From Pelosinus propionicus DSM 13327 (GTDB lineage: Bacteria > Bacillota > Negativicutes > DSM-13327), in NCBI RefSeq assembly GCF_900114615.1, contig NZ_FOTS01000049.1, forward strand, positions 1 to 38,106: a DNA stretch of 38,106 nucleotides, read 5' to 3'. Below are positions 1,303 through 34,300 of the stretch, one piece after another (position 1 is the first letter of the stretch; each line of letters starts with the position of its first letter). Under the pieces are notes generated by a model that saw only the letters and a program-made list of their open reading frames with translations, made no database searches and was not told the DNA's origin. The position numbers and the translations under genes were made by a program.

Positions 1303-1327
1303 AAAAAGAGCTCTCCAAAGGAGAGCT
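1303..1327 (-). terminator. Rho-independent terminator
   Basis: A perfect 8-bp stem (1309-1316 with 1320-1327, loop of three) is followed on the minus strand by CTTTTTTATA. It lies about 110 bases downstream of the stop of the 63-aa cysteine-repeat gene and is its likely terminator. Confidence 0.75.
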
Positions 1328-1434: not shown

Positions 1435-1626
1435 TTAGCGTGGCCAGCATCCTTGCCAAGGCCAGCAAAACTGTCTGGGAAAACAAGAGCGGCGAGGAAA
1501 GCAGGCAAAGCCAAAACCAAAGCCTAAGCCTAAACCAAATCCCAGTCCTAAGAGTATACGGCGTTCTTCTTCGGATCTTGCGTCCCAATCTTCAATTTGT
1601 GGTTCTTCCTGGTAGCGATAATCCAT
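1435..1626 (-). CDS. 63-aa Gly/Phe-rich protein with cysteine hexapeptide repeat
   Basis: The start is ATG at 1626-1624, with AGGAGGTGAT just upstream; a longer frame exists but lacks this site. The protein has three parts. Residues 1-24 are acidic and polar. Residues 25-40 alternate glycine with leucine or phenylalanine (LLGLGFGLGLGFGFGF). Residues 42-63 repeat C-(F/W)-P-(R/W)-x-x, with cysteines at 42, 48, 54 and 60, exactly six apart. No family is recognised. The pattern suggests a cross-linked structural protein, such as a spore-coat component, or a metal-binding tail. The gene has its own terminator at 1303-1327. Confidence 0.65.
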   Translation of the reverse strand: MDYRYQEEPQIEDWDARSEEERRILLGLGFGLGLGFGFGFACFPRRSCFPRQFCWPWQGCWPR

Positions 1627-1761
1627 TGTAATATCACCTCCTAAATCTATAAACATTCTTACTATTACATAATATGATTTATAGTAAATAAGGGTGAATG
1701 GGTTAGCTGTCAATTGCCTCGTCATATTTTTGTCATATCTTTTTTCTATAATAGAAACAAC

Positions 1762-4480: not shown

Positions 4481-5779
4481 ATGTTAGCACTTTTAGGTTT
4501 ATTAACAATCGTAATATTACTGGCAGTAATTATTACAAAACGTATGTCGCCTTTGGTTGCCCTAATTGTTATTCCCATTATAGCGGCATTACTTGGCGGT
4601 TTTGGCTTAGGTACTAGTAAATTTATCATAAGCGGCATACAAAATATTGCACCAGTAGCTACTATGTTTGTTTTTGCAATTTTGTTTTTTGGTGTCATGA
4701 GTGATGCAGGATTATTTGATCCGATTATTAACAAAGTTTTAAAAGCAGTGGGTGCAAGCCCGCCAAAGATTTTAATGGGTACTGCTCTTTTGGCGCTACT
4801 AATTCATCTTGATGGTTCAGGGGCTGTGTGCTTTCTAATTACGATCCCAGCCATGCTTCCTATTTATGAGAGACTTAAAATGGATAAGAGACTGTTATGT
4901 TTAATGGTTTCTATGGCTGCGGGGATTAACTATCTGCCTTGGACAGGACCAACTCTGCGAGCTGCTGCAGCCTTTAAGGTTCCAGTTACTGAAGTATTTA
5001 CACCCTTAGTTATTCCTCAGATTGTAGGGTTAGTCTACATGTTTACAGTGGCTTATTTATTAGGGAAAAGAGAAGCTCGCCGTCTGGGCATAAAAGATGG
5101 CGAAGTAACGGATATCGTTTTAACAAGAGAATTAAAGGATGAAGAACAAGCTCTCAGACGTCCAAACGTATTTTGGATCAATGCTGTTCTTGCCCTTGTA
5201 GTTATGGGGGTAATGATTGCAGGCATTGTTGATCCAGCCCCCATGTTTATGATTGGTACGGTATTGGCATTGATGATTAACTATCCGAAAGTTGGAGAGC
5301 AAAAGGCTCGTGTAGATGCTCATGCCAAAGCAGCCTTAATGATGGCAAGCATTTTGTTAGCTGCAGGGTCTTTTGTGGGAATTATGAGCGGCACAAAAAT
5401 GATTACTGCCATGGCTCAGGTGGCTGTTTCCTTTGTACCTCCTGCCTTGGCTCAGCATATTCCTTTTGCAATGGGTATTATATCCATGCCGCTTAGCTTG
5501 ATCTTTGACCCTGATTCTTTTTATTTTGGTGTTTTGCCAGTAGTAGCTGAAGTAGGACAGATGCTGGGTGTTCAGCCTCTTGCTGTAGCCCAGGCAGCCC
5601 TTATGGGGCAGATGACGGTAGGTTTTCCAGTCAGTCCATTGACTCCTGCGACCTTCTTAATCATAGGACTCACGGGAATTGAACTAGGAGAACATCAGAA
5701 GTTTTCCATTCCATATCTTTGGCTGGCTTCAGTTATTATGACGATTACTTGTGCAATTGTTGGAGTTTTTCCGTTTTAG
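4481..5779 (+). CDS. CitMHS-family carboxylate transporter
   Basis: This inner-membrane secondary transporter has about 12 membrane segments in 432 residues. It belongs to the CitMHS family, whose known members import citrate complexed with Mg2+ or Ca2+ together with protons. Marks include the N-terminal [15 protein letters not shown], the central [20 protein letters not shown] and the HLDGSGA and [13 protein letters not shown] motifs. I place the start at ATG 4481, seven bases after AAGGAGG; an in-frame TTG at 4478 is too close to that site. It is first in a sigma-54 operon with the AtuA-like pair, so it probably imports their substrate. The actual acid is unknown. Confidence 0.88.
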
Positions 5780-17757: not shown

Positions 17758-17945
17758 ATTAAAATAAAATAAATCAAGACAGGAATATAGTATGAGAGTG
17801 TCCAATATAAAAAAAGGAAAATATTTACAATTAAAAACCTGCTCATAAAAAAGTAGTCATGCTGGAAAATAATCGTGCATAGAATAGGAAATGGGCTGCA
17901 TGAGTTTTTGTGGCATGGGTAGAAAATGAATGGGGGATTTATGTT

Positions 17946-19133
17946 ATGCGTAAGAAGGAATGTGTTGCTATGATTTTAGCAGGTGGGCAGGGAAGCAGGC
18001 TGGGAAGCCTGACGCGCAAGATTGCAAAACCAGCCGTGCCCTTTGGCGGTAAGTATCGTATTATCGATTTTCCTTTAAGCAATTGCCACAATTCTGGAAT
18101 TGATACGGTGGGAGTTCTGACGCAGTATCGTCCTCTGGCTTTGCACAGTTATATTGGAATCGGTAGTCCATGGGATTTAGATCGAAGAGATGGCGGCGTG
18201 TATGTTTTGCCTCCTTATGCCCAGGAAGGCGGCGCAGAATGGTATAAAGGAACAGCAGATGCCATTTATCAAAATTTAAATTTTATTGATATGATTAACC
18301 CTAACTATGTATTGGTGTTATCAGGTGATCATATTTACAACATGGACTATTCAGTAATGCTGGATCATCATAAAAAACAACGGGCGGAAGCTACAATTTC
18401 GGTTATTGAAGTACCTTGGCATGAAACTTCACGCTTTGGAATCATGAATACTGATACATCCGGCAGAATCACAGAATTTATTGAAAAGCCTAGAGATGCA
18501 AAGAGTAATTTAGCTTCCATGGGAATTTATATTTTCAATTGGCGTTTATTGAGAAAGAGTTTAGAAGAAGATCGTAAAAATGCTCTTTCCAGTCATGATT
18601 TTGGCAAAGATATTATTCCTAAACTATTAATGGACGGTCATCGTTTATTTTCATATTATTTTAAAGGATATTGGAAGGATGTAGGCACCGTAGAAAGCTT
18701 TTGGGAAGCAAATATGGATTTATTGACTGATGAGCCAGAACTGGATTTGTATAATCCCAATTGGCGGATTTATTCTGTAAATCCAACCAGGCCACCTCAT
18801 TATATTGGCAGTACAGCAAAAATTACTCGATCTTTGGTGAGTGAAGGCTGCTCAATTTTAGGTGAAGTAGAGCATTCTGTAATCTTTCCTGGTGTGCATA
18901 TCGAGGAAGGAGCCGTAGTTAAGGACTCCATTGTCATGCCTTATGTTACCATAGGCAGAGACGCACAGATTTACCGCGGGATAATCGGACGAAAAAGCTT
19001 AATTGAGGAAGGCGCTTTGATTGGTGCAATCAATCATGAGGGTATATGTGTGATTGAGGAAAATATCGTCATACCTAGTGATGCTCAAATTCTGGAAAAT
19101 CATATGATAAGTAAACAAAAACAGGTGGGATAA
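17946..19133 (+). CDS. glgC: Glucose-1-phosphate adenylyltransferase, copy 1
   Basis: GlgC makes ADP-glucose from ATP and glucose-1-phosphate, the committed step of glycogen synthesis. The 395-aa protein has the nucleotide loop GGQGSRLG (13-20), the [15 protein letters not shown] motif, SGDHIY, an IEKP motif and a C-terminal left-handed beta-helix. In the usual DHIYKMDY motif this copy has Asn (DHIYNMDY), while the second copy keeps Lys. I choose ATG 17946 because it aligns with MHKKACVAM of copy 2; a GTG frame opens at 17910 but has no homologous sequence. It is one base from glgD and probably works as a GlgC-GlgD complex. Confidence 0.94.
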
Positions 19134-19134
19134 G

Positions 19135-20250
19135 ATGCAAAACGTTATGGGAATTATTCATTTGAATCTTGGTCAGGATGTTTTAAAAGAGTTAACTATG
19201 GGGAGGCCGCTGGCCGCCCTTCCTTTTGGCGGCAGGTATCGATTGATTGATTTTATTTTATCCAATATGGTCAATTCAGGAATGCAGAATGTTGGGATTT
19301 TGGTACAAGATAAATATCGCGCATTAATGGATCATTTGCGTTCGGGAAAGGAGTGGGATTTAGCCCGCAAAAGAGATGGATTATTTATTTTGCCTCCTAG
19401 CCCTAATCCGTGTTCTACTAGTGGATGCCGGGGAAGCGTAGAGAATTTTTATAATAACTTAGACTATATTGAAAGCAGCCGGCAGGAATATATGCTGATT
19501 GCTGGTAGTCATATTGTCTGCAACTTAAATTATCGCAAGGCTTTTAAATTTCATAAGGATATGAATGCAGACGTTACTATTTTATACAAGGAACATGATA
19601 TAGAGGATGAACTTACACGATATACTATCCTTGATTGTCAGCCTGATGGCAGAATCAGTGATATGGGCAGCCAATCCCCTAGAAGTGCATCCCGTAAAGT
19701 TTCCATGGAAATGTATCTGATCGAAAAAAGATTGTTGGTAGAGTTAATTAAAGACAGCCAGGCACGAGGCGGCTGGGATTTTACAAAGGATGTTTTAATT
19801 AAAAATGTAGATAAGCTAAAAATGTTTGGTTATCCTTATAAGGGGTATGCGGCCAGGATTGATTCAATAAAAAATTATTATCGTCACAATATGGATTTGC
19901 TAAGACCGGAAAAGTGGGAAGAATTATTCTTCAAATCCGGGCTTGTCTATACAAAGGTAAAGGATGAAGGCCCGGTCAAGTATAAGGAAAATGCCAGAGT
20001 TTTTAATACCATGATTGCTAATGGTTGTATTATTGAGGGACGGGTGGAAAATAGTATTTTATTTCGTGGTGTCAAAGTACATAAAGGCGCATATATTAAG
20101 GATAGTATTATTATGCAAAAGTGCGAAATTGCTGAAAATGCGATTATTGAAAATGTAATATGTGACAAAAATGTTTGTATTACGCAAGGAAAATGGTTAA
20201 AAGGGGAGAAAAACTACCCTCTGGTAGTGGCAAAGGGCACTGTAGTATAG
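19135..20250 (+). CDS. glgD: GlgD-type glucose-1-phosphate adenylyltransferase subunit, copy 1
   Basis: GlgD is the non-catalytic partner of GlgC in Firmicutes and raises or tunes its activity. The 371-aa protein keeps the sugar-nucleotide fold (ALPFGGRYRLIDFILSNM, SGKEWDLARKRDGLFILPPS) and the beta-helix tail (NSILFRGVKVHKGAYIKDSI). It lacks the GGxGxRL phosphate loop at its N-terminus, reading MGIIHLNLGQ instead. It starts one base after glgC. A second GlgD lies at 28654-29772. Confidence 0.92.
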   Translation: MQNVMGIIHLNLGQDVLKELTMGRPLAALPFGGRYRLIDFILSNMVNSGMQNVGILVQDKYRALMDHLRSGKEWDLARKRDGLFILPPSPNPCSTSGCRGSVENFYNNLDYIESSRQEYMLIAGSHIVCNLNYRKAFKFHKDMNADVTILYKEHDIEDELTRYTILDCQPDGRISDMGSQSPRSASRKVSMEMYLIEKRLLVELIKDSQARGGWDFTKDVLIKNVDKLKMFGYPYKGYAARIDSIKNYYRHNMDLLRPEKWEELFFKSGLVYTKVKDEGPVKYKENARVFNTMIANGCIIEGRVENSILFRGVKVHKGAYIKDSIIMQKCEIAENAIIENVICDKNVCITQGKWLKGEKNYPLVVAKGTVV

Positions 20251-20308
20251 ATGCGACAGAGTAAGCAAAAGATTATCCTTCAGAATTAGTCATTTCAGGA
20301 GGTTTTTT

Positions 20309-22744
20309 TTGTTGATGGATAAAGAAGGATTTAAAGAAACTTATATCAGGAAATTACAAGCCCTGCATGGTAAAAGTCTTGAAGAATCCAGTATTCATGA
20401 TCAATATATAGCATTGGGAAGCCTGCTGCGGGATTATATCAGCCCTAATTGGATAAAGACCAATCAGCAGTATAAAGCTAACAGCGATAAACAGCTCTAT
20501 TATTTTTCAATAGAATTTTTATTAGGTAAGCTGCTGGATATGAACCTGATTAACTTAGGGATGAAAGAGGTTTGCCAGGATGGACTTGCAGAGCTAGGAA
20601 TCAATCTATCTGTACTATTACAGCAAGAGCCAGATGCAGGACTCGGTAATGGCGGACTCGGAAGGCTTGCTGCTTGTTTTCTCGACTCTATGGCAGCACT
20701 ATCCCTTCCAGGACATGGCTGCGGTATTCGGTATACTTATGGCTTATTTGAACAGAAGATAGTAAAGAATTATCAAGTGGAATTACCGGATAATTGGCTA
20801 AAAGATGGTTATATATGGGAATATCGTAGAACAGATAAAGCTGTAGAGGTTTCTTTTGGAGGTCATGTAAGAAGCATAGTAAAAGCAGATGGCAGAGTTT
20901 GCTATCTTCACGAAAGTGCAGAAGCAATATTAGCGGTTCCTTATGATATACCTATGATCGGATACCAAAATAATACTGTCAACACTCTTAGATTATGGAG
21001 CGCGGAATTAGCACATAACGACTGCTATTTTACATTCCGTAATCGGAATGATTTCGTAAAAGCGATAGAATATAAGAATTCAGTAGAGCGAATTTCTAAG
21101 TATTTATATCCAGATGATACGCATCCGGAAGGACGTCTATTGCGATTAAAGCAGGAATATTTTTTTGTTTCAGCAGGCTTACAAAGTATTTTAAAGGGAT
21201 TTAAGTCTGCTAATCATAAGATTCAATTTTTTTCTGAGAAAATTGGTGTGCATATTAATGACACACATCCAGCCTTAGCTGTTCCGGAATTGATGAGAAT
21301 CTTAATTGATGATGAGAATCTGGGATGGGATGAGGCTTGGCAAATTACAACGCAGACCATATCTTATACCAATCATACTGTGCTTCCTGAGGCCCTTGAA
21401 ACCTGGCCTGTGGATATGTTTCAGAATTTACTGCCTAGGATTTACATGATCATCGAAGAAATCAACCAGAGATTTTGTAAAGAATTATGGGAGCATTATC
21501 CCGGACAGTGGGGACGCATTGCAGATATGGCTGTGATTGCTGATGGTGTAATTCATATGGCACGTCTTGCAGTGGTAGGCAGTCATAGTGTTAATGGAGT
21601 GGCAAAGCTTCATTCGGATATTTTACAACAATATCTGCTGCATAATTATTATCAATATGATCCAACTAAATTTCATAATAAAACCAATGGTATTACACAT
21701 CGTCGCTGGTTATTAAAGGCGAATCCCCAGCTTACGGATTTAATTAGCAATGCAATTGGAACCAATTGGATTGCTGAGCCCAAAGAATTGCTGCTGCTGC
21801 GTAAATACGCAAAGGATACTGTTTTTAAAGAACAATTAGCAACAATAAAACTTAAGAATAAAATAAAGCTGGTTGATCATATTTATAGTCATTATGGGAT
21901 ATCAGTGAATCTTCATTCGATCTTTGATATACAAATCAAAAGAATTCATGCTTATAAACGCCAAATCTTAAATGTTCTTCATATTATGCATCTCTATAAT
22001 GAATTAAAAATTAACCCGCAATTAGATATGGTACCACGTACTTTTATTTTCGCTGGAAAGGCGGCACCAGGCTATTATATAGCCAAACAAACGGTGAAAT
22101 TAATTAATATCTTAGGATCTGTCATTAATCATGATAAAACCATACAGGATAAACTAAAAGTAGTATTTATGGAGAATTATAGTGTTTCTTTAGGAGAAAT
22201 GCTGTTCCCTGCTGCTGATGTGAGTGAACAAATTTCTACAGCTAGCAAAGAAGCTTCTGGAACCGGAAATATGAAGTTTATGATGAATGGAGCCATTACA
22301 ATTGGAACGCTAGATGGTGCAAATATTGAGATCGAAGAAGCGGTTGGTCCGGAGAATATTATTATTTTTGGTCTTACAGCCCAACAAGCTTTGGATTACT
22401 ATAAACACGGAGGCTACAATGCTTGGGATGTCTATAATGAGGATATGCGAGTTAAAAAAGTAATAGAGCAGCTCGTAAATGGATATTTACCAGACGAACG
22501 AGAAGAATTCAGGCCTCTATATGATTATTTATTGCGTCATAATGATGAATTCTTTGTTTTAAAGGATTTTGCTGCTTACGTCGATGCTCATCAACGGTTA
22601 GATCATAAATTTCGCCAAAAACAGCATTGGCAGTCGATGTGCCTAGAAAATATCGCTCATTCCGGCCTGTTTTCCAGTGACAAAACAATACGAGAGTATG
22701 CTGCAGAAACTTGGAATTTGGAAAGGTCAATCATAAGGAGATGA
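20309..22744 (+). CDS. glgP: Glycogen phosphorylase, copy 1
   Basis: GlgP releases glucose-1-phosphate from the non-reducing ends of glycogen, using pyridoxal phosphate. The 811-aa length is normal for the family. The cofactor lysine is Lys656 in EASGTGNMKFMMNG, and family marks such as EPDAGLGNGGLGRLAACFLDS, NDTHPALAVPEL and KTNGITHRRWL are intact. The start is TTG at 20309, six bases after AGGAGG. The resulting N-terminus MLMDK matches that of copy 2, whose ATG supports the choice. It follows glgC-glgD by 58 bases and is closed by a strong terminator. Confidence 0.94.
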   Translation: MLMDKEGFKETYIRKLQALHGKSLEESSIHDQYIALGSLLRDYISPNWIKTNQQYKANSDKQLYYFSIEFLLGKLLDMNLINLGMKEVCQDGLAELGINLSVLLQQEPDAGLGNGGLGRLAACFLDSMAALSLPGHGCGIRYTYGLFEQKIVKNYQVELPDNWLKDGYIWEYRRTDKAVEVSFGGHVRSIVKADGRVCYLHESAEAILAVPYDIPMIGYQNNTVNTLRLWSAELAHNDCYFTFRNRNDFVKAIEYKNSVERISKYLYPDDTHPEGRLLRLKQEYFFVSAGLQSILKGFKSANHKIQFFSEKIGVHINDTHPALAVPELMRILIDDENLGWDEAWQITTQTISYTNHTVLPEALETWPVDMFQNLLPRIYMIIEEINQRFCKELWEHYPGQWGRIADMAVIADGVIHMARLAVVGSHSVNGVAKLHSDILQQYLLHNYYQYDPTKFHNKTNGITHRRWLLKANPQLTDLISNAIGTNWIAEPKELLLLRKYAKDTVFKEQLATIKLKNKIKLVDHIYSHYGISVNLHSIFDIQIKRIHAYKRQILNVLHIMHLYNELKINPQLDMVPRTFIFAGKAAPGYYIAKQTVKLINILGSVINHDKTIQDKLKVVFMENYSVSLGEMLFPAADVSEQISTASKEASGTGNMKFMMNGAITIGTLDGANIEIEEAVGPENIIIFGLTAQQALDYYKHGGYNAWDVYNEDMRVKKVIEQLVNGYLPDEREEFRPLYDYLLRHNDEFFVLKDFAAYVDAHQRLDHKFRQKQHWQSMCLENIAHSGLFSSDKTIREYAAETWNLERSIIRR

Positions 22745-22751
22745 AATATTG

Positions 22752-22791
22752 ACGAGAGTATACTTAAAGCGTAAAGTATACTCTCGTTTTG
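22752..22791 (+). terminator. Rho-independent terminator between the two glgP genes
   Basis: A perfect 14-bp stem (22752-22765 with 22774-22787) ends in T residues, eight bases after the first glgP stop. It separates glgC-glgD-glgP from the downstream glycogen genes. Confidence 0.85.
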
Positions 22792-22829
22792 TAGTTAATT
22801 CTAAAAATATTGTAATGTGACAATGCGAA

Positions 22830-22859
22830 TTGACAAAAAAATGCAAAAATTTCATTCTA
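22830..22859 (+). promoter_or_regulatory. Possible promoter of the second glycogen operon
   Basis: A perfect TTGACA at 22830-22835 is followed after 18 bases by ATTCTA (22854-22859), a weak -10. It lies between the terminator and the second glgP, where a promoter is needed. The -35 is good and the -10 poor. Confidence 0.3.
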
Positions 22860-22994
22860 AAAAAGAAGGGATTTTTCAGATGAATGGACAAGTATAACGA
22901 TAAGAGAAATCATATAATTTTTTTACAAAAGGACAAGATTATTCAATAAATTCAAATATAAATATTGTAATTTTGAATAAGGGGGACAGGCTGC

Positions 22995-25430
22995 ATGTTA
23001 ATGGATAAAGATGAATTCAAAACCATTTTTGTAAACAATCTGCAAACGATGTTTGGTAAAGGGATTGAGGAAGCGTCTATTAATAATAAATATATGGCCC
23101 TAAGCCGAGTTATTCGTGATTGCATTAGTAAGAATTGGATGGAGACAAATAAACAATATAGTGAAACAGGAGTCAAGCAGGTTTACTACTTTTCCATGGA
23201 GTTTTTACTGGGAAAGGCATTGGATATGCACTTAGTCAATGGCGGAGTCAAGGAAATCTATCGAGAGGCTCTTGAGGAGATCGGGATTGACTTAGAGGAA
23301 CTGGAAAAACAAGAGTCAGATCCCGGCCTGGGCAATGGTGGTTTAGGGCGTTTGGCAGCCTGCTTTATGGAATCAATGGCAGCGGTTGGAATCCCGGGAC
23401 ATGGCTGCGGCATTCGCTATACCTATGGATTATTCGAACAGAAAATTGTAGATCATAACCAGGTTGAATTACCTGATAATTGGCTGCAGGATGGTTATGC
23501 TTGGGAATTTCGTAAAGCGGATAAAGCGGTAGAGGTCAAATTTGGCGGTACCATTAAAAGTAACCAGCAAGGAGGGCGTTGGGTGTTTACCCATGAAAAT
23601 TATGAGGCTGTATTAGCAGTGCCTTATGACGTCCCAATTGCTGGTTATCATAATAAAACGGTGAATACTCTGCGGCTGTGGAATGCAGAATCGTTACATG
23701 ATAGTTTTGATTTTGCATCCTTTAATCGAGGGGAGTACTTAGAAGCAAAGGAGTATCGGTCCTCCGTTGGTTTGATATCGAAGATCTTGTATCCCCAGGA
23801 TAATTTTTATGAAGGACGTCTTCTACGTTTAAAGCAGCAATATTTCTTTGTCTCTGCGGGACTGCAGAGTATCATTCGGCGATACAAAAAGAAGCATACC
23901 TCGATGAAGCAATTGTCCAAGAAGGTAGCTGTGCACATTAATGATACCCATCCTGCAATTGCAGTACCTGAACTGATGCGTTTATTGATGGACCAAGAAG
24001 GCTTATCTTGGGATGATGCCTGGAAAATTACGACGGAAACTATTTCATATACCAACCATACCATTATGCCGGAGGCGCTAGAAACATGGCCAGTGGAAAT
24101 GTTTAAATCGCTACTGCCAAGAATGTATATGATCGTCCATGAGATTAATGAGCGTGTGTGCCGCAGCTTTTGGGATGCGTATCCCGGGGACTGGGAACGA
24201 ATTCGAGGCATGGCAGTAATTGCGGACAATATGGTTCATATGGCCAGACTTGCCGTAGTCGGCAGTCATAGTGTAAATGGTGTTGCTCAAATACATACCG
24301 ACATATTGAAAGAACATATTATGTCGAGTTTTCATAATTTTTACCCCAAAAAATTTAATAATAAGACAAATGGTATTACCCATCGACGGTGGCTGTTAAA
24401 AGCTAATCCTGAACTTGCTGCGATAATAACAGATTGTATTGGGGCAAACTGGATTACGGATCCTCAGAATTTAGATGAATTTGAGCGATTTGCCACAGAC
24501 AAGGTTATACAAGAAAAAGTTCAGAAAGTGAAACACAAAAATAAAAAGGCATTAGCGAAGTATATTAAGGAAAAAACAGGTGTCACCGTAGATACTCGTT
24601 CAATTTTTGATGTTCATATCAAACGTATTCACTCTTACAAACGTCAAATACTTAACATATTTCATATTATGGATTTGTATAATCGATTAAAGGAGAACCC
24701 TTCTTTATCCATCACACCACGAACCTTTATTTTTGCAGGAAAGGCGGCACCAGGATATTATATAGCAAAACAAACTATCAAATTAATTAGCGTTTTGGCT
24801 TCGCTAATCAATAAGGATAAAGATATTAAAGGTAAATTAAAAGTCATTTTTTTAGAAAATTACAGTGTATCCTTGGGAGAATTACTATTTCCTGCAGCTG
24901 ATGTTAGTGAACAGATATCGACGGCTAGTAAAGAAGCTTCAGGGACAGGAAATATGAAGTTTATGCTGAACGGAGCGGTTACGATTGGTACGCTGGATGG
25001 AGCAAATGTGGAAATCCATGAGGCTGTAGGCGATGATAATATTTTTATTTTTGGACTGACCAGCCAGCAGGTGTTTGATTATTACATTCACGGCGGATAC
25101 AATGCTTGGCAGTTGTACAGCAGCGACATACGACTTAAGACTGTTTTAGAACAATTGGTTAATGGTTTTCTACCGTATCAAAAAGAAGAATTTAGGCCCT
25201 TGTATAATTCGTTACTTGCTGATAATGATGAATTTTTTGTTTTGCGAGATTTTGATGCTTATGCAAAGGCGCAAGTCGAATTAGACAAACGATATAAGCA
25301 AAAAAATAAATGGACAGAAATGAGTATTCACAACATTGCGCAAGCAGGTATTTTCTCCAGTGATCGTACTATTTGTGAATATGCCAATGAGATTTGGCAC
25401 ACAAAACCTGTAGTTATTACCAAACCATAG
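22995..25430 (+). CDS. glgP: Glycogen phosphorylase, copy 2
   Basis: This is a paralogue of the upstream glgP with the same length (811 aa) and collinear motifs: ESDPGLGNGGLGRLAACFMES, NDTHPAIAVPEL, KTNGITHRRWL and the PLP lysine Lys655 in EASGTGNMKFMLNG. The start is ATG 22995 after AAGGGGGA. It begins a run of closely spaced genes (glgB 29 bases on). Many differences are spread along the sequence, so the duplication is not recent. The two enzymes may differ in chain-length preference or regulation, which cannot be told here. Confidence 0.94.
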   Translation: MLMDKDEFKTIFVNNLQTMFGKGIEEASINNKYMALSRVIRDCISKNWMETNKQYSETGVKQVYYFSMEFLLGKALDMHLVNGGVKEIYREALEEIGIDLEELEKQESDPGLGNGGLGRLAACFMESMAAVGIPGHGCGIRYTYGLFEQKIVDHNQVELPDNWLQDGYAWEFRKADKAVEVKFGGTIKSNQQGGRWVFTHENYEAVLAVPYDVPIAGYHNKTVNTLRLWNAESLHDSFDFASFNRGEYLEAKEYRSSVGLISKILYPQDNFYEGRLLRLKQQYFFVSAGLQSIIRRYKKKHTSMKQLSKKVAVHINDTHPAIAVPELMRLLMDQEGLSWDDAWKITTETISYTNHTIMPEALETWPVEMFKSLLPRMYMIVHEINERVCRSFWDAYPGDWERIRGMAVIADNMVHMARLAVVGSHSVNGVAQIHTDILKEHIMSSFHNFYPKKFNNKTNGITHRRWLLKANPELAAIITDCIGANWITDPQNLDEFERFATDKVIQEKVQKVKHKNKKALAKYIKEKTGVTVDTRSIFDVHIKRIHSYKRQILNIFHIMDLYNRLKENPSLSITPRTFIFAGKAAPGYYIAKQTIKLISVLASLINKDKDIKGKLKVIFLENYSVSLGELLFPAADVSEQISTASKEASGTGNMKFMLNGAVTIGTLDGANVEIHEAVGDDNIFIFGLTSQQVFDYYIHGGYNAWQLYSSDIRLKTVLEQLVNGFLPYQKEEFRPLYNSLLADNDEFFVLRDFDAYAKAQVELDKRYKQKNKWTEMSIHNIAQAGIFSSDRTICEYANEIWHTKPVVITKP

Positions 25431-25459
25431 TCTGCGGGCAATTATAGGGGAGGTATTAT

Positions 25460-27358
25460 ATGGCAGTTCCTACTTCACCAGTCAGTCAAGAAGATTTATA
25501 TTTGTTTCATGAAGGCAGTAACTTTCGGAGTTATCAGTTACTGGGAGCTCATGTTTTAGAAGTAGATGGCAGGCAGGGAGTGCGCTTTACTGTATGGGCA
25601 CCCAATGCGCAGGCAGTGCGGGTCGTCGGAGATTTCAATGGTTGGCAGGGCGAACAGCATAAGATGGAGCGTGTTGAAGGATCAGGTATATGGTTGTTGT
25701 TTATCCCGGGGATTAAGAACGGAGACATCTATAAATATGAGATACAGACTGCGGAGGGACAGGTAATCCTAAAAGCTGATCCTTATGCCTTTTATGCTCA
25801 GCTTCGACCTGAAACGGCTTCCGTGGTATATAATTTGAACGGCTATCAGTGGAACGATGTAAAGTGGCAATCAAAAAAGAAAAAAACAGTAAATCAGCAG
25901 CCGCTATTGATTTATGAGGTACATTTAGGATCCTGGAGGCGGGGTGAAAACAATGCGGTGTTGACATATCGTGAATTGGCAGAACTCCTCCCTCAATATG
26001 TAGCTGCTATGGGCTATACTCACATTGAAATCATGCCAGTTGCAGAACATCCTTTTGATGGATCTTGGGGTTATCAAGCAACGGGGTATTACGCTATTAC
26101 CAGCCGTTACGGTACTCCGGAAGATTTTATGTACTTGGTGGATGTATGCCATGAATATGAAATTGGTGTGATCGTAGACTGGGTACCAGGGCATTTTTGT
26201 AAAGATAATCATGGACTTAGGCAGTTTGATGGTACTGCATTATATGAGTATGCTAATGTTCAGCGAGCAGAGAATAAGGGTTGGGGCACTGCCAATTTTG
26301 ATTTAGGACGTACGGAAGTGATAAGTTTCCTTATCTCGAATGCTATATTTTGGTTGGATGTGTATCATATTGATGGCATTCGGGTTGATGCGGTTTCTAA
26401 TATCTTATATTTAAATTACGGCAGGGAGGAAGGAGATTGGACACCTAACCCATATGGGGGGGATGGCAATCTTGAAGGAGCCGCTTTTTTGCGTAAATTA
26501 AATGAAGTTGTTTTTGCTCAGCGGCCGAATGTACTTGTGATGGCAGAAGAGTCAACCTCCTGGCCTATGGTATCTTGGCCGACCTATAGTGGCGGCCTGG
26601 GTTTTAACTTCAAATGGAATATGGGCTGGATGAATGACATGCTGCGATACATGGAAATTGATCCAGTTCATCGAAAATGGAATCATCACTTGTTAACTTT
26701 TTCGTTTATGTATGCTTTTTCGGAAAATTTCATTCTACCTTTATCTCATGATGAAGTGGTCCATGGAAAGAAATCGATGCTTAATAAAATGCCTGGTGAC
26801 TATTGGCAGAAATTCGCTAATCTACGTGCTTTTTATGGTTATTGGATGGCTCATCCAGGGAAGAAGTTGTTATTTATGGGCAGTGAGTTTGGTCAATTTA
26901 TTGAGTGGCAGGATCATGAGAGTTTGGACTGGCACTTAGTGGAGTCTCCAATGCATGGAAAGTTGCAGGAGTATTGCCGCAGGTTAAATCATTTTTATCA
27001 GCAGGAACGATCTTTATGGGAAGTAGATGGAAATTGGCAGGGCTTTGAATGGATTGACTGCAGCGATTATACGCAAAGTGTAATTTGTTTTATGCGTAAG
27101 AGTATCAGTCCAGAGGAGATGTTAATTGTAGTGTGTAATTTTACACCTATCGTACATTATGCTTATCGAATCGGCATACCTGCTGAAGGATTTTATCAGG
27201 AATGCTTTAATAGTGACTGGGAGGAGTTCGGGGGATCCGGACAAAAGAATATAGGAATATTAGCAGCTGAAGGGAAGGCTTGGCATAATCAATCTCACTC
27301 TTTGGAAATCACTCTTCCGCCGTTGGCGACTATCTATCTAAAAAAGATTAAAAAATGA
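25460..27358 (+). CDS. glgB: 1,4-alpha-glucan branching enzyme (GH13)
   Basis: GlgB cuts alpha-1,4 chains and rejoins them as alpha-1,6 branches. The 632-aa protein has a CBM48 domain (about 36-125; VWAPNAQAVRVVGDFNGW) and a GH13 catalytic domain with nucleophile Asp310 (DGIRVDAVSN), acid/base Glu363 (MAEESTSWP) and Asp431 (SHDEVVHGKKS). It has a single N-terminal module, as in Firmicute enzymes. GGGGAGG precedes the ATG. It lies between glgP and the second glgC-glgD pair. Confidence 0.95.
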   Translation: MAVPTSPVSQEDLYLFHEGSNFRSYQLLGAHVLEVDGRQGVRFTVWAPNAQAVRVVGDFNGWQGEQHKMERVEGSGIWLLFIPGIKNGDIYKYEIQTAEGQVILKADPYAFYAQLRPETASVVYNLNGYQWNDVKWQSKKKKTVNQQPLLIYEVHLGSWRRGENNAVLTYRELAELLPQYVAAMGYTHIEIMPVAEHPFDGSWGYQATGYYAITSRYGTPEDFMYLVDVCHEYEIGVIVDWVPGHFCKDNHGLRQFDGTALYEYANVQRAENKGWGTANFDLGRTEVISFLISNAIFWLDVYHIDGIRVDAVSNILYLNYGREEGDWTPNPYGGDGNLEGAAFLRKLNEVVFAQRPNVLVMAEESTSWPMVSWPTYSGGLGFNFKWNMGWMNDMLRYMEIDPVHRKWNHHLLTFSFMYAFSENFILPLSHDEVVHGKKSMLNKMPGDYWQKFANLRAFYGYWMAHPGKKLLFMGSEFGQFIEWQDHESLDWHLVESPMHGKLQEYCRRLNHFYQQERSLWEVDGNWQGFEWIDCSDYTQSVICFMRKSISPEEMLIVVCNFTPIVHYAYRIGIPAEGFYQECFNSDWEEFGGSGQKNIGILAAEGKAWHNQSHSLEITLPPLATIYLKKIKK

Positions 27359-27438
27359 GAGGAAGGTAGCGTCCTAGAAATAAAGATAAAGGTGCTGGAA
27401 TAAGTTATGAAAGACTTTTAATAGTAGGGGGCGTTATT

Positions 27439-28650
27439 ATGCACAAAAAAGCGTGTGTAGCTATGTTATTGGCAGGTGGACAAGGAAGTCGTCTTGGTAT
27501 TTTGACACAGAAACTAGCCAAGCCTGCAGTTCCCTTTGGCGGCAAGTATCGCATCATTGACTTTCCTTTAAGCAATTGCAATAATTCAGGCATTGACACA
27601 GTTGGTGTACTTACTCAATATAAGCCGTTAGCGTTGAATAGTTATATCGGTATTGGCAGTGCCTGGGATCTGGACAGAATGAACGGTGGTGTGTTTGTTC
27701 TTCCTCCTTATGTAAAAGAACAGGGAGGAGAATGGTATAAAGGTACGGCAGATGCGATTTGTCAAAACAGCAATTTTATTGACCGATTTAATCCCGAAAC
27801 CGTACTCGTATTATCTGGTGACCATATTTATAAAATGGACTATTCTTTAATGCTGGAGTACCATCAAAAGCAGAAGGCGGATGCTACCATTGCGGTCATT
27901 GAAGTTCCCCTTGATGAAGCTAGCCGATTTGGAATTATGAACACCGATAAGGAACAACGTATTATTGATTTTGAGGAAAAACCTGCGGAACCAAAAAGCA
28001 ATTTGGCATCGATGGGAATCTATATATTTAATTGGCCGGTTTTAAAGAAATATCTGTTTGAAGATGAGCTGAATCGACATTCAACTCATGATTTTGGTCA
28101 TGATATTATTCCTAAAATGCTGGCAGATAAGCGTAATCTTAAGGCCTATTCTTTCAGAGGATACTGGAAAGATGTAGGAACCGTAGAAAGTTATTGGCAG
28201 GCGAATATGGATTTGTTAGGAGAGAGGCCCGAACTAAACTTGTATGATTCAAAATGGCGTATTTATTCCTCGAATCCGCCGAGACCTCCTCATTATACTT
28301 CTGCCACGGCTAAAATTACGAATTCGATTATTGCAGAGGGATGTTTAATTTTAGGCGAGGTCGAGAATTCCATTCTTTTTCCCGATGTTTATGTTGGACC
28401 AGGTGCTAAGGTGAAAAATTCCATTCTTATGTCTGGTGCACATATTGAAGATCATGTTGTGACCGATAAGGCGATTATTGGGCGTAAAACTGTACTAAAG
28501 CAAGGAACTGTAGTAGCAGCGAAGAAGCTGGATGGGCAACAGAAGATAGTCGTATTGGATATTGATATGATTATTCCTCCTCATACTACGATTGAGGCAA
28601 GCCTATCGTGCAGTCCGCCAGAAGATGAGCTTTGTAAAAGGGAGGAATAA
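27439..28650 (+). CDS. glgC: Glucose-1-phosphate adenylyltransferase, copy 2
   Basis: This second GlgC (403 aa) is closely similar to the one at 17946-19133 and keeps all motifs: GGQGSRLG near the start, [15 protein letters not shown], the canonical [15 protein letters not shown] and a C-terminal beta-helix. The C-terminus is slightly longer, ending in a charged [13 protein letters not shown] tail. It follows glgB by 80 bases with an AGGGGGC site and precedes glgD copy 2 by three bases. Having canonical Lys where copy 1 has Asn, it may be the more typical enzyme of the two. Confidence 0.94.
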
Positions 28651-28653
28651 GAT

Positions 28654-29772
28654 ATGATCGATTTAATGGGGATTATTAATCTCAATGAAGCAGAAGAACA
28701 TATAGGAGAGTTAAGCCGTTCTCGTTCATTGGCCTCAATTCCCTTTGCGGGGCGCTATCGCTTAATTGATTTTGTTCTGTCAAATATGGTAAATTCAGAG
28801 ATCTCTAACGTCGGGATCTTTATTCAGCATAAATATCGATCTTTGGTAGATCATTTACGTTCGGGGAAGGATTGGGATTTAGCACGAAAACGCGACGGAC
28901 TCTTTGTTTTACCGCCGGCTTATACCCGAACTCCGATGCAGGTTCATCGGGGTGATGTAGAAAACTTATACAGTAATTTAGATTATATTTATCAAAGCCG
29001 TCAGAGATATGTTATTATTGCAGGCGCCAACATTGTAAGCAATATGGATTATCGAGGAATCCTGGAATATCATAAAAATACAGAGGCTGATATTACCGTT
29101 TTATATACAAAGGCAAATTGCGGAACTCATGATTGTGTCAGATCTAATATTTTAGGACTTGGTCCGGAAGGGCGGGTTCTTAGTATAAGTGAGTTTAAAG
29201 ATACAGGCGGTTATCAAAATATGTCTATTGACATGTTTATTATGAAAAAAGACTTGCTGATCGAATTGGTAAATGGTTGTATTGCCCGTGGGGATTATGA
29301 TTTTGTAAAGCATTGTATTATTAAAAATGTTAAGAGATTAAAAGTATATGGATATCATCATCCAGGTTATGTAGCACGGATTAGCTCTCTGCAAAGCTAT
29401 TTTCAACACAGTATGGAATTACTCAATCCTCATATTTGGAAGGAGCTATTCTTCAAATCGGGATTGATTTATACAAAGGTGAAGGATGAAGCACCTGCAA
29501 AATATATTCATGAAACGGAGGTGACAAATTCTTTAATTGCCAGTGGATGTTATGTGGAAGGAAAGGTCGAAAATAGTATTTTATTTCGCGGCGTAAAAGT
29601 ACATAAGGGAGCATATATTAAAAATAGTGTTATTATGCAGAAGGGGAATATAGGATCAGGAGTGATTCTGGAAAATGTTATTTGTGATAAGGATGTCCAT
29701 ATTACCGCTAATAAGCAGTTAAAGGGTGAATACAGTTATCCCCTTGTAATAAAGAAAGGAAGGGTGATTTAA
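28654..29772 (+). CDS. glgD: GlgD-type glucose-1-phosphate adenylyltransferase subunit, copy 2
   Basis: This 372-aa GlgD resembles the copy at 19135-20250 over its whole length (SIPFAGRYRLIDFVLSNMVNS, SGKDWDLARKRDGLFVLPPA, NSILFRGVKVHKGAYIKNSV). It also lacks the GGxGxRL loop, so it is expected to be a modulating partner of GlgC. It begins three bases after glgC and ends two bases before glgA, giving a tight glgC-glgD-glgA block. Confidence 0.92.
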   Translation: MIDLMGIINLNEAEEHIGELSRSRSLASIPFAGRYRLIDFVLSNMVNSEISNVGIFIQHKYRSLVDHLRSGKDWDLARKRDGLFVLPPAYTRTPMQVHRGDVENLYSNLDYIYQSRQRYVIIAGANIVSNMDYRGILEYHKNTEADITVLYTKANCGTHDCVRSNILGLGPEGRVLSISEFKDTGGYQNMSIDMFIMKKDLLIELVNGCIARGDYDFVKHCIIKNVKRLKVYGYHHPGYVARISSLQSYFQHSMELLNPHIWKELFFKSGLIYTKVKDEAPAKYIHETEVTNSLIASGCYVEGKVENSILFRGVKVHKGAYIKNSVIMQKGNIGSGVILENVICDKDVHITANKQLKGEYSYPLVIKKGRVI

Positions 29773-29774
29773 CG

Positions 29775-31241
29775 ATGACAAAAGTATTAATCGCAGCCGC
29801 TGAAGCGGTACCTTTTGCAAAAACAGGTGGATTAGGAGACGTTATTGGTTCATTGCCGAAAGAACTAATAAAACAAGGTGTGGATGCCAGGGTTATTATG
29901 CCTAATTATCAAGATATCCCTGATAGTTTTAAAGCACAAATGATCTTTAAAAATCACTTTTTTGTCCAGGTTGGCTGGCGGCAGCAATATTGCGGGATTT
30001 TAGAATTTGTTTATGATGGTGTAACTTTTTATTTTACAGATAATGAATATTATTTTAAACGCCATGGCTTTTATGGGTATGGAGATGATGCGGAGCGCTT
30101 CGGTTTCTTTTGTCGTGCAGTGCTAGAGGCTTTGGACAAAATTGATTTTATGCCAGACATCATTCATTGTCATGATTGGCACACTGGAATGATTAGCGCT
30201 TTGTTAGACGCTCATTATCGAGAAAAACCAAAGTATAAAAAGATTAAAACGTTATTTACGATTCATAATCTAAAATATCAAGGCGTATTTTCTCAAGATA
30301 TATTACACGATATATTGAGTTTGGATTGGAAGTATTTCACTCCAGAAGGTGTAGAATTCCATAAGGCCGTTAACTTCATGAAAGGTGGCTTGGCATATGC
30401 AGATATGATTTCAACTGTTAGCAGAACGTATGCTCAGGAAATTCAAGATCCTTATTTTGGTGAAGAATTAGATGGATTTTTACGAAAACGTCAAAATCGT
30501 TTAGTAGGTATTGTAAACGGTATTGATTATACTGTATATAATCCAGCGACGGATAAACTTATTTCTAGTACATATGATGTGCAGAACTTAGAGAAGAAAA
30601 GCAAAAATAAGATCGATTTGCAAACCCGCTTGGGCTTACCTGTAAGGGAAGAGGTACCAGTCATTGCTATTGTGTCTCGATTGGTGAGTGCTAAGGGACT
30701 GGATTTAGTAGAACGAATGCTTCAGGATTTGGTGAAACAGGCGGCGATTGCTGGAAAGGATACTTATGACATTCAATTAGTGGTTCTAGGAACTGGCGAA
30801 GCGCGGTATGAGAACTTCTTTAAATACATGGCCTGGCAGTATCCAGGGAAAGTTTCTGCCAATATCATGTTTGATGAAGATTTGGCTCATCAAATTTATG
30901 CTGGCGCCGATATGTTCTTGATGCCTTCCTTATATGAACCTTGCGGTATTGGTCAATTGATTGCCATGCGTTATGGGTGCCTGCCCATTGTAAGAGAAAT
31001 TGGCGGTTTGCGCGATACGGTACGTTCTTATAATCAAGAGATCTGCGAGGGAAATGGTTTTACTTTTGTGAATTATAATGCTCATGAAATGCTCGATACA
31101 GTCAATTGGGCGTTACAAACATATAAGGACAAGGAATGCTGGAATAAAATCGTAAAAAACGCTATGCAAAGTGATTATAGCTGGGAAAAATCAGCAATGG
31201 AATATAAGGAAATTTATCAAAAATTAACAAAACAGATGTAA
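29775..31241 (+). CDS. glgA: Glycogen synthase (ADP-glucose, GT5)
   Basis: GlgA adds glucose from ADP-glucose to the growing alpha-1,4 chain. The 488-aa protein has the GT-B fold with the ADP-binding KTGGLGDV loop (Lys16), the HCHDWHTGM and TIHNLKYQG motifs, VNGIDYTVYNP in the middle and the C-terminal PSLYEPCGIGQLIAMRYGC active-site segment. Length is normal. It is the only glycogen synthase in the cluster, so both GlgC-GlgD pairs must feed it or another enzyme elsewhere. Confidence 0.95.
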   Translation: MTKVLIAAAEAVPFAKTGGLGDVIGSLPKELIKQGVDARVIMPNYQDIPDSFKAQMIFKNHFFVQVGWRQQYCGILEFVYDGVTFYFTDNEYYFKRHGFYGYGDDAERFGFFCRAVLEALDKIDFMPDIIHCHDWHTGMISALLDAHYREKPKYKKIKTLFTIHNLKYQGVFSQDILHDILSLDWKYFTPEGVEFHKAVNFMKGGLAYADMISTVSRTYAQEIQDPYFGEELDGFLRKRQNRLVGIVNGIDYTVYNPATDKLISSTYDVQNLEKKSKNKIDLQTRLGLPVREEVPVIAIVSRLVSAKGLDLVERMLQDLVKQAAIAGKDTYDIQLVVLGTGEARYENFFKYMAWQYPGKVSANIMFDEDLAHQIYAGADMFLMPSLYEPCGIGQLIAMRYGCLPIVREIGGLRDTVRSYNQEICEGNGFTFVNYNAHEMLDTVNWALQTYKDKECWNKIVKNAMQSDYSWEKSAMEYKEIYQKLTKQM

Positions 31242-31330
31242 TAGTAGAGATATGGCATCAATGAAGATAAAACTGCAATCCGCTCAAAAATCTTATCAGT
31301 ACGTATTTTCTAACGAGTGAGGGATGTAAT

Positions 31331-34300
31331 ATGAAGCAAGAATTAATTCTTCATGATTCACAATTGGATGTCTTTCGCAGCCCCTTTGGGGCTGTTTGTT
31401 GTAATCAACCTCTTATTCTGAAGTTGAAAATACAGAGTTCTGTTCCCCCTGCAAATGTTGTACTTCGATTATGGCTAGAGGAGCGGGGGGAAGAAAGAAT
31501 TCCAATGACGAGGGTGGAGGATTCAGGGCAGACCGTGTTCTATCAAGTGCAGATGAACGCTCCTTTAGCGCCTTGCATTGTTTGGTATTATTTTATGATT
31601 GAGCTGGAGAATTCAGTATATTATTATGGAAACCAGCCTGACCAGTTAGGAGGTACAGGGCGGCTATATGAGACAGAGCCTCCTAGCTATCAAATTACTG
31701 TATATAAGAAGGGAGCCGTTACTCCTGATTGGTTTAAAGGTTCCGTGATGTATCAAATTTTCCCAGATCGCTTTTATAAGGAAACAACAGATGGACAGGT
31801 TTTAACGGCGCCAAAAGGCAGTGTCTTTCATGCGTATTGGGATAACCATCCTTATTATATTCGTGATGCAGATACAGGAAGGATTGTATCCTATGACTTT
31901 TTTGGAGGCAATTTGCAAGGCGTGATTGCAAAACTGCCTTATTTAAAGGAACTTGGCATTAGCGTCATTTACTTTAATCCTATTTTTGCATCTTCTAGCA
32001 ACCATCGATATGATACAGGAGACTATAAAACCATAGATGCTATGCTTGGTGACAACCAAACTTTCGCGGCATTGTGTAAAAAAGCAAATGAGTACGGTAT
32101 TTCTGTAATTTTAGACGGTGTTTTTAGTCATACGGGCAGTGATAGCATTTATTTCAATAGGGAGGGTAATTATCCTGAGGTGGGTGCTTACCAGTCTAAG
32201 GAATCTGCTTATTATAATTGGTATCGGTTTAAAAAATATCCCCATTCTTATGAGGCTTGGTGGGGAATTGATACAATGCCTAATGTGGAAGAGAGTGAAC
32301 CTTCTTATATTGATTATATAATTGATGGGAAGGATAGTGTGATTAAGCAATGGCTTCGGCTGGGAGCCAAAGGATGGCGTCTTGATGTGGCAGATGAGCT
32401 GCCAGATGAATTTATAAAAAAGATCTATAAAGCCATGAAAAATGCGGACCCGGATAGTGTATTGATTGGTGAAGTCTGGGAAGATGCTTCGAATAAGGAA
32501 AGCTATGGAAAGCTCAGAAAGTATCTGCAGGGAGATGAATTAGATTCAGTAATGAATTATCCCTTCCGAGGGATTGTATTGGATTTTATCCTTGGCCGAA
32601 TGGATGCTTTTGAAGTCCATCGACGATTTATGAGCCTGGCAGAAAATTACCCGATTCAAAACTTTTATGCGATGATGAATTTAATTGGCAGCCATGATGT
32701 GACCAGGATATTAACCTTGTTGGGAGAGGCTCCATCTCCGGATAGTTTGACTGTTGCTCAGCAGGCAGTATATCGTCTGTCTACTGAAAAACGGCAATTA
32801 GGAATTGCTAGATTGAAAATATTGGTTCTATGGCAAATGACCTTTCCTGGTGTTCCCTGCATTTATTATGGAGATGAGGCTGGCGTAGAAGGATTCAAGG
32901 ATCCTTTTAATCGCGGAACCTATCCTTGGGGTCAAGAGGATACGGAATTGCTGGTATGGTATAAACAGGTAATTGCACTGCATAACCGTTATGATCTTTT
33001 TAAGGCGGGAGAGTGGATTTCACTGCCTGTCCATGAACAGGTATATGGATATATTCGCAAAATTAGTAATGGAAAGAATGTTTTTAGTCAATCGGCTCAG
33101 GATAACACAGCTGTAATCCTTTTGAACACCAGTGTCGATCAATCCATAATTGTGGAAATTCCGATTCGCAAGTGGTGCCATGGTGTTATGATCGATATAT
33201 TGAATAATGATCAGGAAATTCGGATTATAAAGGGAATACTGACCATATGTTTACAGCCTTTGGAAGGGAAGGTTTTGCTTCAAAGGGAAAAGAGCTTTTT
33301 TCCGCGTCAGGCAGGAATACTCTTACATCCGACATCGTTGCCTTCTAAATATGGTATTGGAGATTTGGGGCAAGAGGCGTATGAATTTATTGATTTTTTA
33401 CATAAGAGCAAACAGAAATTATGGCAGGTACTGCCTCTAAACCCTGTCGGAGATAGTCACTCTCCTTATCAGTGTCCTTCTGCCTTTGCAGGCAATCCTT
33501 TGCTGATATCCATAGATAAATTAGTAAATCAAGGACTTTTGACAGTAGATGACTTAGGACAGGTTCCCCAATTTAATGATGAGCAAGTAGCGTTTTCTGA
33601 TGTGAAAGAATACAAAGAATCCTTATTTCTAAAAGCGTTTACAACTTTTAAACAGCAGAGTAGATTGCAGGATTATGAACGTTTTTGCACGACGCATCAT
33701 AGCTGGCTTTTGGAGTATGCATTGTTTATGGCCCTAAAAAACTTTTTTAAGGGGCAGCCATGGCATCTGTGGCCTAGAGAGGTTTCTCTGCGGGAACCGA
33801 AAGCACTAAAAAAGTATAAAAATTTGCTAGCGGATGCTATTGACTATCATATCTTTTTGCAGTTTATCTTTTTTAGACAATGGGAAGACGTTAAGCAGTA
33901 TGCAAGGCAAAAGAATATCAGTATTATTGGAGATATTCCTATTTTTGTGGCTCACGATAGCTGTGATGTCTGGGCAAATCGGCAGCTCTTTGATTTAGAT
34001 GAAAATGGCAATGCGCACACAGTGGCCGGAGTTCCGCCTGATTATTTTAGTAAGACGGGACAATTATGGGGTAACCCTCATTATCATTGGAAGGAAATGG
34101 AGAAGAATGATTATCGCTGGTGGAGAGAACGGCTGCAGGTCTTATTTTCCTTAGTTGACATCGTTCGTGTTGATCATTTTCGTGGTTTTGAATCCTTTTG
34201 GGAAGTTCCTGCTTCAGCAGAAACTGCAGAGAAAGGGCAATGGGTAAAAGGCCCTGGAGAACGATTCTTTCGTATTTTGCGGCAATATCTAGGTCCGCTG

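Follow-up and report, generated by a model that had tools for sequence, protein, structure and literature searches.

A small C-x-P repeat protein of Pelosinus propionicus as a candidate dispersed substrate of a sporulation-linked radical SAM/SPASM enzyme

The 63-aa gene

The window, the whole 38,106-nt stretch of Pelosinus propionicus DNA analysed here, carries on its minus strand a short ORF for a 63-aa precursor-like protein, MDYRYQEEPQIEDWDARSEEERRILLGLGFGLGLGFGFGFACFPRRSCFPRQFCWPWQGCWPR (Table 1). The sequence-only reading had described cysteines at positions 42, 48, 54 and 60 heading repeat units behind an acidic head and a Gly-Leu/Phe spacer. Translation of the ORF confirms all four cysteines, each of which starts a C-x-P unit, and the head, spacer and Cys tail follow in the order claimed. 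Shuffling the 63 residues 200,000 times gave at least four C-x-P units in 2 cases and four equally spaced cysteines in 214. Three residues before its Pro, the head has Q rather than Y or W.

Judged from its sequence, the ORF is a coding gene with syntenic orthologues. Compared with the orthologues in Pelosinus fermentans JBW45 (L056) and in genome G009 (L060), nucleotide differences at first, second and third codon positions number 1/0/11 and 1/2/21, respectively. This excess of third-position changes, together with an AGGAGG ribosome-binding site, a sigma-K-like promoter and a terminator-like stem, is how a real gene behaves. Both orthologues have the same neighbourhood as the 63-aa gene, with amidase, L,D-transpeptidase-like and membrane-protein genes close by. 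Elsewhere in the window (17910–34792) lies a cluster of glycogen genes that, by eye, contains two copies each of glgC-like, glgD-like and phosphorylase-like genes; its last ORF, of 1153 aa, resembles an amylase fused to a 4-alpha-glucanotransferase, also by eye.

Table 1. Features of the 63-aa gene in the window, and its paralogues elsewhere in the genome
Feature	Position	Strand	Remark
63-aa precursor-like ORF	1435..1626, stop included; coding part 1438-1626	minus	
Acidic head, residues 1-22, MDYRYQEEPQIEDWDARSEEER	1561..1626	minus	P-x-I-x-x-W kept
Gly-Leu/Phe spacer, residues 23-41	1504..1560	minus	
Four C-x-P units CFPRRS CFPRQF CWPWQG CWPR, residues 42-63	1438..1503	minus	
Ribosome-binding site AGGAGG	1637..1642	minus	read from sequence
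Sigma-K-type promoter CAC-N17-CATATTAT, then GTA	1669..1696	minus	core same in both orthologues
Terminator-like stem-loop, then T run	1309..1327	minus	2 such sites in whole stretch vs 0.5 expected
Other four paralogues	L009, 120 aa; L010, 86 aa; L011, 101 aa; L012, 91 aa		genome search, loci inspected

The C-x-P repeat family

Five related genes of the P. propionicus genome, the 63-aa gene included, have a common P-x-[I/M]-x-x-W head and a C-x-P repeat tail and form a family by sequence. The tails of the paralogues consist mostly of C-W-P-R-x-x units in differing copy number. The precursor family is present in all 10 genomes of the host's taxonomic family. An initial match on contig C94 (L013, E 0.65) was discarded, there being no family ORF at that place. 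Close to two of the paralogues (L010, ~571–1632; L012, ~1040–2536) phage-type DNA methylase-like and site-specific recombinase-like genes were seen by eye; mobile elements may thus be how the family spread.

Homologues with variable repeat number, which the sequence-only reading had proposed to look for, do exist: a set of 41 genes holds 3 to 16 C-x-P units per protein, and the 63-aa gene has four. These 41 genes and a wider set of 82 distinct strings, which includes cut copies and close orthologues, were selected by head and C-x-P patterns; the 63-aa gene and its orthologues are outside the 41 and were examined separately. Among the 82 strings, 852 of 893 cysteines lie in C-x-P and 58 strings have every cysteine so placed, proportions that are partly by construction because the same patterns were used for selection. 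Successive cysteines are mainly 6 (412), 5 (162) or 4 (119) residues apart. Among 803 C-x-P units that could be read two residues further, the x position is aromatic in 484 and the residue after the Pro is Arg, likewise, in 484; only 89 have the form C-x-P-x-R. Gly-type spacers similar to that of the 63-aa protein are found in dispersed copies of other genera (L178, L182, L183, L184, L187, L190–L192, L198 and L200) and in copies upstream of a radical SAM gene (L120 and L142). Searches of Pfam and NCBIfam at E ≤ 1 returned no family for the five precursors save one streptosactin match, to P0004, rejected at E 0.02 and 14.9 bits against a cut-off of 50.

The radical SAM/SPASM enzyme and its precursors

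Directly upstream of the L011 copy, on the same strand of another contig, is the gene of a 410-aa radical SAM/SPASM protein (rSAM). Enzyme and precursor are encoded together there; for the 63-aa gene the enzyme would act in trans. The earlier reading held that the lack of a modification enzyme nearby favours a structural role. None was seen by eye in the ORF list of the window, so the observation stands, but an rSAM with a predicted RRE is found beside a paralogue elsewhere in the genome, behind the same type of promoter, and as an argument against modification the observation misleads.

Nine of the 10 genomes in the host's taxonomic family encode the rSAM; G009, at 85% completeness, is the exception. 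A scan of named genomes gave 33 rSAM loci, in Sporomusa, Anaerospora, Lucifera, Pelosinus, Ruminiclostridium sufflavum and distant relatives, the last in Clostridia, a Woesebacterium and a Latescibacterota bin. A C-x-P-rich ORF directly follows the enzyme gene in 24 of the 33 loci, a pairing read from gene order. In the other nine, the C-x-P ORF is upstream of rSAM (L120, L127), the head occurs without repeats (L114) or with three C-x-P beside rSAM (L119), or no C-x-P ORF adjoins rSAM (5 of 33: L111, L122, L125, L126, L133).

Three sets of loci deserve separate mention. In JBW45 (L102, ~5279–5600), counted among the 24, the rSAM-adjacent precursor runs out of frame within its repeats and relatives have intact copies; the gene may really be lost, or the break may come from sequencing or assembly. 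In Ca. Woesebacteria (L129) and Clostridia bins (L130–L132), relatives of 36–39% identity are followed by C-x-P-rich ORFs with different heads, so the coupling of enzyme and substrate may not be confined to sporulation. A second rSAM copy is found in genome G008 (L069, G008:C6); about 3 kb upstream of it, a minus-strand ORF from near 10845 has 15 cysteines, every one in C-x-P, and belongs to the C-N-P type that other genera also have.

Across 31 rSAM homologues, ten cluster cysteines are invariant (C107, C111, C114, C314, C330, C369, C372, C378, C381, C401), covering the CxxxCxxC motif and the SPASM cysteines. Pfam Radical_SAM matches 31 of 31 and SPASM 30 of 31. In sequence, the solved enzyme closest to the rSAM is SkfB (E 8.3e-23). 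The rSAM scores 71.9 bits against the NCBIfam cut-off of 300 for the SkfB family TIGR04403 and 119.1 bits against 175 for the grasp-with-SPASM maturase TIGR04193; it reaches no cut-off among the 25 of 77 NCBIfam families listed, and neither do four further members. No relative was found in the viral collection, and in a 398-genome sample of the phylum only the own genome matched at E ≤ 1e-50. Inspection by eye of the genes next to the rSAM in its own genome showed no transporter, protease or immunity gene.

Predicted folds and leader recognition

The rSAM model has a mean pLDDT of 88.3. Its closest structures are CteB (5wgg; Z 22.4, rmsd 6.4, 351 aligned), SuiB (5v1t; Z 22.3, rmsd 3.4, 298 aligned) and SkfB (6efn; Z 22.1, rmsd 10.3, 311 aligned), followed by ChlB (Z 21.6), a viperin-like enzyme (Z 21.5) and anSME (4k38, Z 21.4); Foldseek places SkfB, SuiB and CteB on top. 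Since these six fall within 1 Z, the fold leaves the chemistry undecided.

Residues 1–88, modelled alone (pLDDT 87.1), match RREs best: lasso B1 (6jx3; Z 9.9, rmsd 2.1, 76 aligned) and TbiB1 (Z 9.3), then PqqD (Z 7.9), PbtF (Z 7.5), TigE (Z 7.1), SuiB (Z 5.7) and CteB (Z 5.6). Winged folds other than RREs also score (GdmN, Z 7.1; MINA53, Z 6.4). Foldseek gave no match for the RRE model at E ≤ 0.001 (best 0.0027), and the PqqD profile matched 1 of 31 rSAM members (E 0.005). The N-terminal domain is thus predicted to fold like an RRE.

According to the accessible portion of a recent study, discrete lasso RREs recognise the motif [Y/W]xxPx[L/V/I/F/A] (PMC13381572, 2026). With Met also allowed at the last place, the motif is present in 41 of 41 family genes, which were themselves selected by their heads, and in 14 of 15 rSAM-adjacent heads from other genera; the published form, without Met, is present in 34 of 41 and 4 of 15. 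The 63-aa protein and both orthologues read Q-x-x-P-x-I. This Q in place of the aromatic residue weighs most heavily against the view that the 63-aa copy is a good substrate.

Promoters

In Clostridium difficile, the −35 element is given as AC for sigma-K and ATA for sigma-E in the part of the source available, where one sigma-K promoter reads AC/CATATAAT (PMC3789822). The C. difficile sigma-K consensus as described there (−35 AC, −10 CATAnnnT, 16–18 nt) is matched upstream of the 63-aa gene by CACCC...CATATTAT.

A common element of this type recurs across the family. The pattern [A/C]AC-N15-18-CATAnnnT lies within 160 nt upstream of 31 of the 41 genes, against a mean of 1.2 and a maximum of 8 in 500 single-base shuffles; the counts are not independent, because paralogues share ancestry in their upstream regions too. 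Eight of the ten genes lacking it are rSAM-adjacent copies behind the rSAM gene; the others are L054 and the C69 gene (L002), which has the element further upstream (C69:37557). The rSAM gene itself has the element, with the −10 within ~60 nt of its start, in 29 of 34 loci, or 26 of 31 distinct ones, three records being duplicates; it is missing at L109 (−10 only), L119, L122, L127 and L128 (further upstream). Among 15 dispersed or non-downstream copies in other genera, 8 have the full element and 11 the exact CATATTATGTA; L178 and L195 have neither. As a control, the element precedes 9 of 369 other ORFs of at least 150 aa. G was allowed as the first −35 base for rSAM loci, other-genera copies and the control ORFs and disallowed in the 41-gene count.

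Genome-wide, CAC-N17-CATATTAT occurs at 13 places in P. propionicus (reversed control 3), five of which belong to the C-x-P/rSAM system. The remaining eight yielded no further candidates at C58:74488 and C130:493 (before short ORFs), C79:102757 (within the coding sequence of a permease), C37 and C120 (followed solely by short ORFs without obvious significance) or C90 and C107 (nothing). At C79:33065 (L159), the element is followed, 42 nt on, by the start of a collagen-like ORF that has G-x-T repeats and resembles spore-surface collagen-like proteins. The variant AC-N17-CATANNATGTA occurs 12 times (reversed control 2): four places belong to the system, and others precede cotJA (PF11007, E 9.4e-16), a DUF2935 gene (E 7.3e-48), a 38-aa Gly/Cys-rich ORF and a 50-aa ORF. 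Those at C58:74485 and C80 (short ORFs only) and at C38 and C78 (no ORF with a ribosome site) were set aside.

The element upstream of the 63-aa gene is very probably a late-sporulation promoter. The gene of sigma-K itself seems to lie in two pieces on one strand (C78:180450–180866 and C78:186134–186385, covering model positions 4–143 and 137–220), 5,267 bases apart, which suggests a skin-like intervening element.

Distribution across Negativicutes

We surveyed 300 Negativicutes genomes, scoring up to 16 precursor candidates per genome; the Fisher tests of co-occurrence treat genomes without regard to shared ancestry. The rSAM was found in 50 genomes, SpoIVA in 52 and precursors in at least 49. 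Both rSAM and SpoIVA occur in 47 genomes and neither in 245; three have rSAM only (G005, G043, G122) and five SpoIVA only. With precursors counted among the matches listed, 47 genomes have both precursor and rSAM and 248 neither; two have the precursor only (G009, G134) and three rSAM only (G025, G027, G122). The five genomes with SpoIVA and without rSAM comprise G014, G032 and G048, which also have no precursors among the matches listed, and G009 (85% complete) and G134 (87% complete), which have them. Genome G025 (99% complete) has rSAM and SpoIVA and no precursor at the cut-off among the matches listed, which either speaks against a fixed pairing or means that the profile missed a precursor.

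A role in sporulation, for which the sequence-only reading had suggested looking, gains support from the sigma-K-type promoter, the co-occurrence of both rSAM and precursors with SpoIVA and the same promoter before cotJA.

Interpretation

We propose that the 63-aa gene is probably a dispersed, late mother-cell precursor, modified in trans by an RRE-fused rSAM/SPASM enzyme and retained as building material of the spore coat. From sigma-K-type promoters active late in sporulation, the mother cell would transcribe rSAM and one precursor as a two-gene unit and, likewise, several unlinked precursor genes, the 63-aa gene among them. The precursor head may dock on the N-terminal RRE, and the enzyme may then modify the cysteines of one C-x-P unit after another. 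For the chemistry, our first guess is a Cys-to-carbon thioether, at slightly below an even chance; the modification could instead be formylglycine, epimerisation or a carbon–carbon link. Because no transporter, protease or immunity gene is seen in the rSAM–precursor pair, the product would most likely stay in the mother cell and be laid on the forespore, with the coat as its probable location. That rSAM-adjacent precursors are modified is very likely; for the 63-aa copy, modification is likely to a lesser degree.

The strongest competing explanation, which we consider unlikely, is a plain Cys-rich coat protein with ordinary disulfides, only the rSAM-adjacent paralogue being modified and the dispersed copies keeping their heads by descent. 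It would account for the missing RRE-motif aromatic in the 63-aa copy and its orthologues and for the absence of an enzyme beside the gene, and the promoter and distribution fit sporulation without needing modification. It sits poorly with the class-wide retention of head, C-x-P rule and promoter in dispersed copies, with the joint absence of rSAM and listed precursors from three SpoIVA genomes, and with the Gly-spacer copy that adjoins rSAM at L120 and L142.

Anaerobic sulfatase-maturing enzymes act at C-x-P/A-x-R, and C-x-P is the start of that motif. The cysteines could on this basis be converted to formylglycine, as by anSME, giving aldehyde-rich, self-cross-linking coat proteins; the anSME structure is also within 1 Z of the best match to the rSAM model (21.4 against 22.4). 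The full substrate motif is absent from most units, as the count of C-x-P-x-R given above shows, and to our knowledge anSME has no RRE, so we regard this conversion as improbable.

Slightly less probable still is a RiPP secreted or released during sporulation for killing or signalling, comparable to the sporulation killing factor, rather than coat material. SkfB as the closest solved enzyme by sequence and the predicted RRE-type N-terminus point that way; the lack of transporter, protease and immunity genes beside the own-genome rSAM, the many unlinked, long and repeat-varying precursors and the sigma-K-type timing point the other way. The sequence-only reading had offered coat protein, metal binder and modified precursor as options; the first and last may both hold, and metal binding is very improbable, since the high Cys content and regular spacing that would suit it come with Cys spacings of mainly 4 to 6 tied to Pro, and it leaves the coupling to rSAM unexplained.

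Our preferred reading, a modified coat precursor, has counterparts in several known systems. Like the RRE-fused maturases CteB, SkfB and SuiB, the enzyme combines radical SAM and SPASM domains with a predicted N-terminal RRE and usually adjoins a small Cys-rich precursor (24 of 33 loci); unlike them, it is linked to C-x-P repeats, several unlinked precursors and, here, a sporulation promoter. The B1 RRE as best structural match of the predicted N-terminal domain and family heads reading W-x-x-P-x-[I/M/L/V] recall lasso leader recognition, whereas no lasso enzymes are seen beside rSAM, Met is common at the last motif position and the 63-aa copy is without the motif aromatic. Promoter type, small Cys- and Gly-rich proteins and the link to spore formers resemble the C. 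difficile sigma-K-regulon coat proteins as far as the available part of their description goes (PMC3789822); the precursors here differ in being coupled to rSAM, and their coat location is a proposal. A radical SAM enzyme working on a repeated short motif, as it would here, is also described for TvgA/TvgB and other repeating-core RiPPs, which, in the available part of the source, differ in their TVGG motif, larger gene cluster and lack of a spore link (PMC9062424).

We found no description of C-x-P substrates, dispersed precursors or a sporulation link in the open-licence full texts searched; the accessible portions of PMC9062424, PMC13381572, PMC12710340, PMC6856326 and PMC3533761 do not describe a C-x-P/rSAM spore system. 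The enzyme belongs to a known kind, RRE-fused rSAM maturases; the putative C-x-P substrates, their dispersal over unlinked genes and the tie to sporulation appear new as far as the literature searched goes. The roles familiar for radical SAM RiPPs are mainly those of secreted antibiotics, signals or cofactors. With an rSAM that tracks endospore formation and seems to act on unlinked repeat proteins, RiPP chemistry would reach into structural material, and the C-x-P unit offers a handle for mining. It is conceivable, though we rate it at somewhat less than an even bet, that spore-forming Negativicutes use this chemistry so: one RRE-fused rSAM would cross-link dispersed C-x-P proteins into a covalently stapled coat that is made without oxygen and not secreted. 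The proposal makes testable how anaerobic, outer-membrane-bearing spore formers build their coat, and suggests that some of them may make part of it from enzymatically modified peptides.
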